NCBI GenBank assembly: GCA_021647985.1 | Contig: JAKITQ010000011.1 | Location: forward strand, 1 to 64,000 | Source: Flavobacteriaceae bacterium | Lineage (GTDB): Bacteria; Bacteroidota; Bacteroidia; Flavobacteriales; Flavobacteriaceae | Reading direction: 5' to 3' | Length of the DNA: 64,000 nt | In this document: positions 14,708 through 62,922 of the stretch, piece by piece | How the letters are laid out: the number at the start of each line of letters is the position of its first letter | Numbering within the stretch: the stretch's first letter is position 1 | The notes under the pieces: model-generated | What the model saw: the letters and a program-made list of their open reading frames with translations, nothing else | What the model was told of the DNA's origin: nothing | The model's database searches: none | Translations under genes and position numbers: made by a program

Positions 14708-14778
14708 TGACCCATGGTGTAACGGTAGCACTCCGGTTTTTGGTATCGTCAGTCAAGGTTCGAATCCTTGTGGGTCAA
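14708..14778 (+). tRNA. tRNA-Gln (anticodon TTG)
   Basis: The cloverleaf is clear: acceptor TGACCCA with TGGGTCA, discriminator A, and a T arm CAAGG-TTCGAAT-CCTTG. The anticodon loop TTTTGGT has TTG at positions 34-36. CCA is not encoded. A partial copy of the T arm and acceptor 3' side lies at 16401-16428. Confidence 0.93.
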
Positions 14779-17163: not shown

Positions 17164-17357
17164 ATTATTCTGATCTTTTACATTCTTTTTTTAAGTACTT
17201 ATTTGAATTAACCAGACAGATATTTAATCAATAAAATAGTATGGCTTTATTTAAGGTCATTTTAATTTTATAAGAAATCAACAAGATATTTACAAAATAA
17301 CAGACTGATATATAAAAAAACAACACCAAATTTAAATTATATTCAATAAATAAAATG
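17164..17357. other. Intergenic stretch before the short ncRNAs
   Basis: AT-rich, no ORF and no strong hairpin. The region from 17358 to 17822 holds two short ncRNAs, a palindrome and a bidirectional terminator, listed separately. Confidence 0.4.
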
Positions 17358-17370
17358 TATATTCGCTTCG

Positions 17371-17440
17371 CTTTAAATTTCTGAGGGGATAATTTTAAAG
17401 TTTAAAACCAAACCTAAATATTTTACATTCAGGTTTTTTT
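17371..17440 (+). ncRNA. Short structured RNA A (TGAGGGG loop)
   Basis: A weak -7 box TATATTCG (17358-17365) precedes. Hairpin 1: CTTTAAATTT (17371-17380) pairs, with one mismatch, to AATTTTAAAG (17391-17400), leaving CTGAGGGGAT in the loop. Terminator: AACCTAAAT (17411-17419) against ATTCAGGTT (17427-17435), then TTTTT. The same layout occurs in RNA B and, with an added hairpin, in the three RNAs at 59.8-60.6 kb. Confidence 0.55.
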
Positions 17441-17620
17441 ATTGCAATAAATCTTTTTTTTATATGTGAAAAGAATGAGTTTGTAACCGGTTAATATTTG
17501 TAGCATTAATTTAGGATAAAAGATCAAAGACAACTTCGTTTAAAGAAAAAAGACTTAATTATAATTATCAAATAATACTACAAATATAAAAACTTGTAAT
17601 AAAGAGGATTTATAATCCAA

Positions 17621-17671: not shown

Positions 17672-17748
17672 CTTAAAATTTCTGAGGGGGAAATTTTAAA
17701 GCTATGAAATTAACCTGAATGTTCAGCATTCAGGTTTTGTTTTTTTTT
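17672..17748 (+). ncRNA. Short structured RNA B (TGAGGGG loop)
   Basis: Hairpin 1: CTTAAAATTT (17672-17681) pairs with AAATTTTAAAG (17691-17701) with one bulged base; the loop is CTGAGGGGG. Terminator: AACCTGAATG (17712-17721) pairs perfectly with CATTCAGGTT (17727-17736), followed by a T run interrupted by one G. It shares hairpin, loop and terminator sequence with RNA A, 300 bp upstream, so the two look like a tandem duplication. Confidence 0.6.
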
Positions 17749-57711: not shown

Positions 57712-59733
<2,022 letters not shown>

Positions 59734-59820: not shown

Positions 59821-60044
59821 AAGTAAAAAGCCTGTTTTAAATGAATAAAACAGGCTTTTATTTTGATTGCAATTTATAAAAATAGCTTAATATTTTAATT
59901 TTGCAATACATTAGTTTCTTTGTTTAAATAACAATCCCCTCAGCTTGTATTTAACGGAAACGAACCTAAGTTATCTAAATTTTAGTCTAGATAATTTTGA
60001 CCTATTTCCGGCCAGACACTAATTAAAGTGAAAAAGAAATAAAA
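59821..60044 (-). ncRNA. Structured RNA unit 1 of a tandem array
   Basis: A -7 box TATCTTTG at 60058-60051 gives a transcript of about 220 nt. Hairpin 1: AAATACAA and TTGTTATTT pair around GCTGAGGGGA (about 59931-59952). Hairpin 2: ATTGCAA (59907-59901) with TTGCAAT (59872-59866), inner TAAAATA/TATTTTTA, loop TTAAGC (59890-59885). Terminator: AAAAGCCTGTTTT with AAAACAGGCTTTT (59826-59859), then TACTT. The 5' part carries the dispersed 18-bp repeat (60003-60020) and lacks the CTGAAG sites of units 2 and 3. No protein of normal size is encoded. Confidence 0.7.
60003..60020 (-). repeat. 18-bp dispersed repeat, copy 3
   Basis: Minus strand AGTGTCTGGCCGGAAATA, inside the 5' part of ncRNA unit 1. 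Confidence 0.55.
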
Positions 60045-60050
60045 TCTGTG

Positions 60051-60058
60051 CAAAGATA
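60051..60058 (-). promoter_or_regulatory. -7 box of ncRNA unit 1
   Basis: TATCTTTG, 270 bp from the matching box of unit 2. Unlike units 2 and 3 there are no CTGAAG repeats upstream (60069-60085), so control should differ. Confidence 0.5.
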
Positions 60059-60091
60059 TGTGAAGTGGTTGTATAAAAATTATAATGGAAT

Positions 60092-60314
60092 GTTAAAAAA
60101 CCCGTTAAAAATAAATTTAACGGGTTTTTTTGTGCAAATTAAAATAGCTTAATATTTCAATATATTTGCTAGGTTTTATCTAAATTTTTAATATTATTCC
60201 CCTCAGATAAATATTAAGGATCTAGATAAAATAGTAAAAACTATAATTTTTTCAGCTTTCTTATTCGTAATCATAGCACGTACTGAAATTTGTTAAAAAA
60301 ACATCATTTTAATA
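60092..60314 (-). ncRNA. Structured RNA unit 2 of a tandem array
   Basis: Promoter TATGTTTG at 60328-60321. Hairpin 1: TTAATATT (60217-60210) with AATATTAA (60195-60188), with CTGAGGGG (60206-60199) in the loop. Hairpin 2: GCAAAT (60169-60164) with ATTTGC (60139-60134), loop TTAAGC (60152-60147). Terminator: AAAAAACCCGTTAAA with TTTAACGGGTTTTTT (60095-60130). The stems differ from those of units 1 and 3 while the loops are kept, which is compensatory change supporting real RNA structure. A 23-codon ORF (MITNKKAEKIIVFTILSRSL and on) ends at the TGA of the loop motif. Confidence 0.75.
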
Positions 60315-60320
60315 ACGCAA

Positions 60321-60355
60321 CAAACATACAAATGAATTCTGAAGAAATTCTGAAG
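60321..60355 (-). promoter_or_regulatory. Promoter and OmpR-type direct repeat of ncRNA unit 2
   Basis: CTGAAG at 60339-60344 and 60350-60355 on the + strand (11-bp period, extended TTCTGAAGAAATTCTGAAG), then 10 bp, then the -7 box TATGTTTG on the minus strand (60328-60321). The repeat occupies the -33 region. Confidence 0.65.
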
Positions 60356-60370
60356 TTAACTCCAGAATTA

Positions 60371-60587
60371 AAAAATTAAAAAGGATCTTATCTTTTTATA
60401 AGATCCTTAATATAAACAAAAACAGCTTAATGTTTCGTTTATTTCTAGTATTTCCCCTTAATAATACCATTCCCCTCAAAATATATTATAAAGATTCAAT
60501 ACTAATTTTTTAATCGATATTTCAGCATTCATAGCAATGAATTTTGAACTTTCTGAAATAGTTATCAATTTTGATTAAAAAACAATA
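60371..60587 (-). ncRNA. Structured RNA unit 3 of a tandem array
   Basis: Promoter TACATTTG at 60601-60594. Hairpin 1: ATAATA (60489-60484) with TATTAT (60466-60461) plus ATT/AAT, with TTGAGGGG (60479-60472) in the loop. Hairpin 2: ATAAAC-G-AAACA (60442-60431) with TGTTT-TT-GTTTAT (60424-60412), loop TTAAGC (60430-60425). Terminator: AAGGATCTTAT with ATAAGATCCTT (60381-60408), then a T-rich run. It has a second GGGG (AAGGGGAAA) after hairpin 1. An 18-codon ORF (MNAEISIKKLVLNLYNIF) ends at the TGA of the loop motif. Confidence 0.75.
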
Positions 60588-60593
60588 ACAGGA

Positions 60594-60628
60594 CAAATGT
60601 ATGTACCATTTCTGAAGAGAATCTGAAG
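60594..60628 (-). promoter_or_regulatory. Promoter and OmpR-type direct repeat of ncRNA unit 3
   Basis: CTGAAG at 60612-60617 and 60623-60628 (11-bp period), then 10 bp, then TACATTTG on the minus strand (60601-60594). The layout is identical in every spacing to the unit 2 promoter. Confidence 0.65.
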
Positions 60629-60671: not shown

Positions 60672-61919
60672 TTAGAAGTACAATGTTATATTGTGTTGAT
60701 TTTCAGTATAAGAATGGTTTATTTTCCAATTATAATTATCGCAAACTTTTTTTACAATTGCCAAACCAAGACCAAATGAATTTGAAGCACTACTTTCTTT
60801 TTTAAATCGTACAAACAAAGCATCTGATTTTAATTGCAGTGGTTTGCCAGTATTGCTAAAACTAATAAATAGGTCGGTCGTTAAAATATCGATGTTGCCA
60901 TTTTTTAAATTGTGCTTAATAGCATTACTCAATAAGTTTGAAATAACCATATCAAGCAACAAAGGGTTGGCTTCAATTTTGGCATTAAGTGTGAAATTTT
61001 TATTTATTGTTATCTTTTTATTTTCTATAAAATCTTCGTAAATTTCTAGGTGTTTATTTACAATGTCATTAATTAATATTGGCTCTTTTTCTTTAAATTG
61101 TCTATTCTCAATTTTTGATAATAATAATAGAGTTTTGTTTAGTTTAGATAGTCGTTGAACCGCCAAATAAATGGCCTTAATTTGTTGAATTTGATCTTGA
61201 TCTAGGTTTTCACTTTGCATCAATTGCTCTGATTTAGACTGCATGATGGCCAATGGAGTTTGCATTTCATGTGAGGCGTTTTCTGTAAACTCTTTTAAAT
61301 TATTAAAATCGGAGTTAATTTTATCCGTTAATTTTTTTAAGGAATCATTTAACTGTTGAAATTCATCAATATCGGTAGCTTGTAAGTGAATGGGCTGATT
61401 GCTTTCTACAGAGAAATTTTTTAAAATTTCAAGATTTTTATGAAATGGTAACCATGCATTTTTCATAATGATGGTATTTACATAATAAACCGTAATTATT
61501 AATAGCAAGACTACAATACCAACAGACAAGGTAATAATTAAAATAAAGTCTTGATTTTTTACCAAAGAGTCTCTGGTAATAATTTTATAGGTTTTATTAT
61601 GTAATGATTCTATAGAGGTTAATTGGCGATATAATTCACGTTTCTCAACACCGTTAACCACACTATAAAACAAAGTGTCTTTATAATAAACGGTATCTTT
61701 AACCAAAGATGTACTAATATAATCATCTACTTCAAAAATAGGAAGTGGATAATCGTATTTTATTTTTTGAGCGATTAATTCTTTATAAAAAAGTAATCTC
61801 TCATCTTGTTTTTTAGTGATGATTCTTTTTAAAGTAACATAAATAATGGTACTAGAAATAATAAAAATAATTAATGAATAAATGATATAAGTACGCCTTG
61901 TCCTTTCAAATAACCTCAT
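60672..61919 (-). CDS. Two-component sensor histidine kinase
   Basis: 415 residues. Membrane helices at about 11-31 and 124-148 enclose a periplasmic sensor domain of about 90 residues. HisKA: phosphoacceptor H217 in ENASHEMQTPLAIMQ. HATPase: N box NLLSNAIKHN, a G1 box reduced to FSNTGKPL, and G2 FGLGLAIVKKVCDN. Its start overlaps the response regulator stop by one base, so the pair is translationally coupled. The signal is unknown. The 3' end faces the ncRNA array, whose promoters carry direct repeats suited to the partner regulator. Confidence 0.93.
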   Translation of the reverse strand: MRLFERTRRTYIIYSLIIFIISSTIIYVTLKRIITKKQDERLLFYKELIAQKIKYDYPLPIFEVDDYISTSLVKDTVYYKDTLFYSVVNGVEKRELYRQLTSIESLHNKTYKIITRDSLVKNQDFILIITLSVGIVVLLLIITVYYVNTIIMKNAWLPFHKNLEILKNFSVESNQPIHLQATDIDEFQQLNDSLKKLTDKINSDFNNLKEFTENASHEMQTPLAIMQSKSEQLMQSENLDQDQIQQIKAIYLAVQRLSKLNKTLLLLSKIENRQFKEKEPILINDIVNKHLEIYEDFIENKKITINKNFTLNAKIEANPLLLDMVISNLLSNAIKHNLKNGNIDILTTDLFISFSNTGKPLQLKSDALFVRFKKESSASNSFGLGLAIVKKVCDNYNWKINHSYTENQHNITLYF

Positions 61920-62593
61920 TATTCCCCAAATTTATAACCTAATCCATAAATGGTTTGTAAATAATCAGTAGCGCCATTTTCCTTTAACTTTTTTCTTAGA
62001 TTTCTCATATGGGTATAGATAAAATCAAAATTATCTACCAAATCGATATTATCTCCCCAAAGGTGTTCTGCAATAGCCTCTTTGGTTAGAACTCTGTTTT
62101 TATTGGTGATAAAATACAGCAACAAATAATATTCTTTTTTAGTAAGATCAAGGGTTTTGTTATTGGCAGTAACTGTTATTGCCTCTGGATCAATTTCAAT
62201 TTCGTTGAAAACAATATTTTTACTTCCGGCAAATTTTTTCCTTCTTATAAGTGAGTTCACTCTAGAGTTTAATTCGGCCAAATGAAACGGTTTAGTAATA
62301 TAATCATCTGCTCCAAGATCTAAACCTTTTAATTTATCATCTAAAGAGTTTTTTGCGGAAACAATTAAGACGCCCATTTCTGGTGCCTTTTCTTTAATGA
62401 GATTTAAAAGATCTAGACCATTTCCATCAGGTAAATTAATATCTAAAATAACGATATCATATTTATAGGTAATTAATTTATCTTCAGCTTCAAAATATGA
62501 TGCCGCCGATTCACATATAAATTCTTCCTTTTGTAAATACTCCAGAGTAGTATTTAATAATTCAATTTCGTCTTCTACAATTAGAATCTTCAT
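61919..62593 (-). CDS. OmpR-family response regulator
   Basis: 224 residues from ATG 62593 (MKILIVEDEIELLNTTLEYL); the longer frame to 62665 overlaps a -7 box (TATTTTTG, 62623-62616). Receiver domain 1-120: acidic pocket EDE, phosphoacceptor D51 in VILDINLPDG, switch residues S and K in LIVSAKN and DYITKPF. Winged-helix DNA-binding domain about 125-224: LDLTKKEYYLLLYFITNKNR and VYTHMRNLRKKL-like FIYTHMRNLRKKLKEN. OmpR-type regulators bind direct repeats 10-11 bp apart, matching the CTGAAG-N5-CTGAAG sites at 60339 and 60612. Confidence 0.94.
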   Translation of the reverse strand: MKILIVEDEIELLNTTLEYLQKEEFICESAASYFEAEDKLITYKYDIVILDINLPDGNGLDLLNLIKEKAPEMGVLIVSAKNSLDDKLKGLDLGADDYITKPFHLAELNSRVNSLIRRKKFAGSKNIVFNEIEIDPEAITVTANNKTLDLTKKEYYLLLYFITNKNRVLTKEAIAEHLWGDNIDLVDNFDFIYTHMRNLRKKLKENGATDYLQTIYGLGYKFGE

Positions 62594-62922
62594 AATAACA
62601 TTGATTTTAGAGAAACAAAAATAACGTTTTTTATTATAATCAAAAAGCTTTGTAAAACACAGCATTTCGTTTAATCTTGAGTTACGAATTTTGATTTATA
62701 AATTAAATATATGAATATTAGAAAGTTATCACAATTTCACATTGTTGTATAACTTGCTATAAATTAATCCTATAAAAAACAAATCGGACTATTATAAACA
62801 ATAAAACTGTAAATATTTATAAAGAAAATATTTTGAATTCAAACAGATAAGTTTTTTAATAAAATAAATTAGATAATCTAACGTTATTATTATCCACTAA
62901 TCAATTAAATAAATTTTCTGCT
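62594..62922. other. Intergenic region between the response regulator and DUF2911 genes
   Basis: It holds the -7 box of the regulator (62616-62623, minus) and a small palindrome TTAGATAATCTAA (62869-62881) before the DUF2911 gene. No CTGAAG repeat and no TGAGGGG motif is present. No ORF of note. Confidence 0.45.

Follow-up and report, generated by a model that had tools for sequence, protein, structure and literature searches.

Three minus-strand units that repeat every 270–273 bp between a histidine-kinase gene and a gyrB-like gene of a Flavobacteriaceae bacterium are, judged from their sequence, likely to be sibling trans-acting small RNAs (sRNAs) that give the neighbouring PorY-family two-component system a non-coding output. 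Because two of the units bear what is likely the switch sequence of the sensor, and because the array recurs across the genus, a new family of regulatory RNAs probably carries part of the sensor's action. The window, by which we mean the whole stretch of DNA analysed, is 64,000 nucleotides long; all features of the array given below lie on its minus strand.

Layout and structure of the array

The array lies between the gene for the sensor histidine kinase (60672–61919, minus strand) and, on its other side, a gyrB-like gene (57712–59700, identified by eye). In each unit, a TAnnTTTG motif, which we take from its type to be a −7 promoter box, is followed by TGAGGGG, a hairpin with TTAAGC in its loop and a terminator, in this order. 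The boxes start at 60594, 60321 and 60051, with spacings of 273 and 270 bp. These coordinates bear out an earlier note on this DNA, which had described a tandem array of three paralogous structured sRNAs of about 220 nt each beside a two-component system; measured from immediately past the −7 box through the terminator, the predicted RNAs are 213 (unit A), 223 (unit B) and 225 nt (unit C) long.

Unit A (predicted RNA at 60376–60588; −7 box TACATTTG at 60594–60601) has hairpin 1 with the loop UUUUGAGGGGAA (60447–60503), hairpin 2 with the loop UUAAGC (60413–60444) and a terminator (60378–60408), each seen in both sequence and fold. It also has a hairpin on the 5′ side (60518–60561), which had escaped the earlier note. 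Unit B (predicted RNA at 60093–60315; −7 box TATGTTTG at 60321–60328) has hairpin 1 with UGAGGGG (60174–60231) and a terminator (60095–60130), again in sequence and fold, and hairpin 2 with the loop UUAAGC (60134–60169), part of which, its 5′ arm, is paired with the 5′ region of the RNA in the minimum free energy fold of the whole unit. Unit C (predicted RNA at 59824–60048; −7 box TATCTTTG at 60051–60058) is a diverged member of the set; hairpin 2, with the loop UUAAGC (59866–59907), and the terminator (59825–59859) are seen in sequence and fold, and hairpin 1 is weak. TGAGGGG had been placed in the loop of hairpin 1 in all three units: the string is indeed present in every unit, but the predicted fold of unit C does not have it in a clean apical loop.

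All three units fold better than their shuffled sequences, with z-scores of −5.08 (A), −6.21 (B) and −4.31 (C), and none of 200 shuffles was as good for any of them. Hairpin 2 has three different stems (ATTGCAA/TTGCAAT, GCAAAT/ATTTGC and ATAAAC/GTTTAT) under the constant TTAAGC loop, exactly as had been noted. ATTAAGCT on its own is no more frequent in the window than chance predicts (4 found versus 5.6 expected); what goes beyond chance is the combination of features and its conservation, rather than ATTAAGCT alone.

Conservation across the genus

We based a covariance model, R1, on 27 units from 19 of the same set of genus genomes that was searched and from named contigs. At E ≤ 0.001, R1 matches units A, B and C and nothing else in the genome of the window (81.1, 56.7 and, for unit C, 46.2 bits). 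Across 22 genomes of the genus, six of which reach 90% completeness with no more than 5% contamination, R1 has 45 matches at E ≤ 1, the units used in building it matching by construction; these are found in 22/22 genomes (21/22 at E ≤ 0.001), and 45/45 fall inside the array. The place beside the two-component system is kept in 22/22 genomes. With stricter filters, R1 matched two of 120 genomes of the family, both of the genus; at E ≤ 1 it matched none of 22 genomes with a kinase homologue, an empty answer that shows little as there was no known positive.

For a closer comparison, 54 units were located through an exact GAGGGGA lying close to a box, one further GAGGGGA, inside gyrB, being dropped. 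They come from 24 assemblies, namely all genus genomes but G016 (21/22) and the three named contigs L008–L010. The presence of GAGGGGA in 54/54 units therefore only reflects how they were chosen. A T directly precedes this string in 54/54 units, and ATTAAGC follows it at 30–70 nt in 41 of the 52 units of sufficient length, nine of the 11 units that lack it being first units. By a strict perfect-stem rule 30/51 units have a terminator, some of the misses having imperfect stems by eye, and at least four first units (in L014, L020, L024 and L030) seem to have no terminator and to run into the next promoter. The 5′ hairpin of unit A recurs, with at most two substitutions per half, in 17 further units (18/54 together); an internal stretch that reads AACGTTCAAAA in most of them is highly conserved and could be a second interaction site. 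In the third units of L014, L020 and L024 only 32 nt separate the −7 box from GAGGGGA; with so short a 5′ side, the 5′ domain appears to be dispensable.

That pairing rather than sequence is conserved, as had been proposed from the three units, holds in the relatives as well, where stems vary under constant loops. The two arms on either side of the loop pair with a mean of −14.4 kcal/mol within a unit, versus −7.6 (s.d. 3.1) when arms are crossed between units (52 units), and the own partner is better than all the others in 15 units. In a fixed-register test, for which the A-type and B/C-type groups and the registers were set by eye, the inner helix of hairpin 1 had 82.6% of cells paired in 33 B/C-type units versus 35–69% in slid registers, with arm shuffles reaching at most 77.3% (0/2000 as good). 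The corresponding value for 19 A-type units was 57.9% versus 20–51%, with 1/2000 shuffles as good, and helix support is weaker in A-type than in B/C-type units. Six of eight pairs are changed on both sides in the two types alike, a count that says nothing alone because slid registers give as many. Hairpin 2, in 32 cores chosen by TTAAGC, had 79.3% of cells paired versus 41–51% in slid registers, and one of its pairs is T–A in 21 cores and C–G in eight. Plain RNAalifold on sequence-aligned units retains only the inner helix and the loop-closing pairs, 4/10 of which are changed on both sides; it gives little for the outer stem because stem length varies, hence the use of the crossed-arm and fixed-register tests.

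The Rfam search, which the earlier note had proposed together with a covariance model, gave no family at the array. At the gathering score Rfam 15 finds only a tRNA at 14708 in the window and nothing on 20 loci with the arrays of relatives; the best sub-threshold score at the array is 31.7 bits versus a gathering score of 49. The suggestion that the units might belong to Flavo-1 (RF01705) has to be dropped, as this motif has no match in the window or elsewhere in the genome. Flavo-1 is rare in the genus of the array (two of 13 genomes searched, G017 and G012, on contigs other than the array contig) and many-copied in G140 and G143, two genomes from elsewhere in the order, outside this family (14 and 42 matches, respectively).

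The constant loop

UGAGGGGA is invariant while the stems and flanks vary. If the units are trans-acting sRNAs, the exposed UGAGGGG loop may pair with C-rich stretches of mRNAs, perhaps those of envelope proteins; the RNAs would then adjust other genes, and the copies may add dose. A less likely, though serious, alternative is that a protein, rather than mRNAs, is what the RNAs bind. RsmY/CsrB RNAs soak up an RNA-binding protein through their GGA loops, and the repeated G-rich UGAGGGGA loops could likewise serve as a sponge, with copy number setting its capacity. The invariance of the loop would fit this, as would its presence in short dispersed hairpins (see below) and the result of a seed test, in which complementary sites before ATGs were not enriched (TTCCCCTC was found within 30 nt before an ATG 359 times, versus 392 times for the reversed pattern). 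However, the partner protein would be a putative one, CsrA being, as far as is known, rare in Bacteroidota, and the UUAAGC loops and 5′ hairpins, which are also conserved, would have to be explained in some other way. Sibling trans-acting sRNAs remain the favoured reading; the seed test lends no support to a pairing of the loop with mRNAs.

TGAGGGGAAT has 108 sites in 22 genomes versus 38 for the reversed control. The arrays account for 48 of them, and of 20 sites fetched from the 60 others, 15 lie within a frame of at least 100 codons. In the genome of the window, a perfect-looking hairpin with the loop UUUUGAGGGGAA, together with a terminator, sits after a gene for a protein that resembles an iron–sulphur repair (ScdA/RIC-like) protein (L149, contig C53 near 2820); it is possibly a 3′-UTR RNA with the same loop.

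The window itself has two short hairpins on the plus strand, at 17371–17440 (with UCUGAGGGG) and at 17672–17748, which have TCTGAGGGG in common in the loop and are followed by terminators. The covariance model does not support them as members of the array family: 17349–17441 scores 20.7 bits (E 0.44) under R1, versus 46.2–81.1 bits for the units of the array, and the hairpin at 17672 is not among the matches listed at E ≤ 10. Neither has a regulator box (see below) within two mismatches. They may represent a separate class that shares the loop. A search with the pattern AAATTTCTGAGGGG, allowing one mismatch, gave scattered matches at about the control level; hairpins that look like similar short RNAs stand behind promoter-like boxes in other gene contexts at L181 (G018) and at L184 and L151 (G001).

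A direct repeat at fixed promoter distance and the two-component system

The kinase scores 421.3 bits against the NCBIfam PorY family (NF052314), above the cut-off of 350. PorY takes part in the control of type IX secretion in Porphyromonas. The gene next to it (61919–62665, minus strand) encodes a response regulator of the OmpR/PhoB type (Response_reg and Trans_reg_C), which reaches the cut-off of none of the 25 families shown for it. Upstream of units A and B we found a direct repeat, CTTCAGA-N4-CTTCAGA (60611–60628 and 60338–60355, respectively), presumably the site of a response regulator and likewise absent from the earlier note. Its distance to TAnnTTTG is exactly 9 bp in both units; unit C has no direct repeat upstream. 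With up to two mismatches the box occurs twice in the window versus 0.33 expected (3/100 shuffles reach two), and if at most one mismatch is allowed the whole genome has two copies, both at the array, versus one for the reversed control.

Searched with at most one mismatch, the module of box, 9 bp and TAnnTTTG turned up 80 times across the 22 genus genomes, 47 times in arrays and 33 times outside them, versus three times for the reversed pattern. In a more permissive search, which allows the box three substitutions at most, it stands before 50/54 units of the 24 assemblies. The units without it are unit C of the window, the last unit of L029, one unit of L023 and one of L015, where the box is present and a fitting −7 box is absent. 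In nine named loci the box starts 25–48 nt past the point where the kinase match ends. That a direct repeat keeps a constant spacing to the promoter makes the two-component system the probable controller of the array, beyond a mere neighbour, and the module is most likely bound by the neighbouring OmpR-type regulator. Unit C of this genome, with no box, may answer to something else.

We fetched 20 of the 33 module sites outside the arrays. In 13 of them, from 13 genomes, the module stands before a lipoprotein gene of a common N-terminal pattern (L129 and L130–L141); the copy in the genome of the window (L129, contig C78 from 20234), the sole one scanned, belongs to the OmpA family (64.9 bits), and this OmpA-like lipoprotein gene is a probable second member of the regulon. 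Four further sites (L142–L145, in four genus genomes) precede a gene for a long secreted-looking protein with the N-terminal pattern LSNFRIEN...DRVYFD, which had no Pfam match in the one scanned. The remaining three sites lie before a DUF4382 protein, before a small lipoprotein without a Pfam match and with no gene start close by, respectively. We suggest that the phosphorylated regulator would bind the direct repeat in place of a −33 element and recruit RNA polymerase, firing several copies at once, and that the OmpA-like lipoprotein gene would be fired together with the units via the same module. As a prediction from the promoters, binding of the repeat by the regulator, with firing of both the units and the OmpA-like gene, is well supported by sequence.

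Kinase homologues (E ≤ 1e-40) are present in 24/120 genomes of the family, 22 of them outside the genus, with identities of 50% in one genome and 30–37% in the rest, which leaves orthology unproven. Across 26 kinase loci of other genera, the module occurs nine times at a spacer of 9 bp and once at all other spacers from 4 to 15 taken together, with one match for the reversed control. The nine fall in 6/26 loci, and in the other 20 the module was not found. Three of them stand directly before the response-regulator gene (L047, L050 and L052, near position 750), which suggests autoregulation; with up to two mismatches, no such box was found before the window's own regulator gene. The other six follow the kinase gene directly and precede genes whose products, judged from their N-termini, are secreted, outer-membrane-like or membrane proteins.

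These loci also bear on the possibility that the units are sRNAs under another regulator, their closeness to the kinase gene being a coincidence of gene order. Such bacteria have several OmpR-type regulators per genome, which would allow for this; however, the recurrence of the module beside kinase homologues in other genera, at three loci directly before the regulator gene, argues against it, as does the 11-bp pitch of the direct repeats, which fits regulators of the OmpR/PhoB type, and we regard a different regulator as improbable. Even less credible is that the units are small-protein genes, leaders or decaying repeats instead of regulatory RNAs: unit A does have two TTG-started frames (27 and 30 codons) and unit C is diverged, but units B and C have no frame of at least 10 codons with a stop, the minus strand within the array has no open reading frame of 60 codons, the units have their own promoters, their pairing is kept in relatives, and each of the three ends in its own terminator, as had been noted, even though the array precedes gyrB.

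The proposed circuit and its known counterparts

With the array read as the RNA output of the PorY-family system, the locus would be a testable circuit of a sensor, a regulator and an 18-bp site at a fixed distance from the promoter, with two or three RNAs and at least one protein, the OmpA-like lipoprotein, as outputs. Little is known of regulatory RNAs in Bacteroidota, and the titles, abstract openings and excerpts surveyed link none of them to a defined two-component system. The locus also suggests how the local target of a regulator may shift from protein to RNA between genera. Several other genera have a module-driven gene behind the kinase, whereas this genus has an sRNA array with the module there; on this ground we tentatively propose that the PorY-type system of the genus swapped its local target from a protein to RNA. 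As part of the same tentative proposal, the UGAGGGG loop may define a wider class of sRNAs in the genus, including the short dispersed RNAs, which would tie envelope or secretion control to RNA regulation.

With at least two paralogous units that have, on sequence, their own promoters, the array can be compared with known sets of sibling sRNAs. Among these, OmrA and OmrB of E. coli are under OmpR control. In the titles and abstract openings of open-licence papers on flavobacterial and Bacteroidetes sRNAs, whether two-component or tandem, the array is not described; the comparisons that follow draw on excerpts of the papers cited. Like the units of the array, OmrA and OmrB are tandem siblings; they have shared ends, a variable middle and envelope targets, but they are 82–88 nt long, Hfq-bound and present in two copies, and bear no sequence relation to the array (PMC4211561). 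FopS/GibS of Bacteroides thetaiotaomicron are likewise a paralogous sRNA family of Bacteroidota, but its 14 copies are dispersed and carry a single-stranded 5′ seed and a single terminator hairpin (PMC11697453). Rfp18 of Flavobacterium psychrophilum is a structured sRNA of the same bacterial family with its pairing region within a stem-loop; compared by description, it differs in that the excerpt presents it neither as an array nor as two-component-controlled (PMC9723704).

The csRNAs of Streptococcus are five similar sRNAs, some of them in tandem as in the array, which are controlled by the two-component system CiaRH and act additively; they differ from the array in sequence and phylum, their genes are mostly dispersed and their targets are known (PMC4507080). 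LhrC1-5 of Listeria are activated by LisR of the LisRK system (PMC5880928). Their loops are CU-rich and pair with Shine-Dalgarno regions, whereas the loop of the array, UGAGGGG, is not CU-rich, and the array further differs in its flavobacterial host, its lack of an Rfam match and its place adjoining its two-component genes (PMC5880928). In both cases, however, there are sibling sRNAs with exposed constant loops that are, or in the array are predicted to be, co-activated by an OmpR-type regulator, in LhrC as part of cell-envelope stress (PMC5880928).
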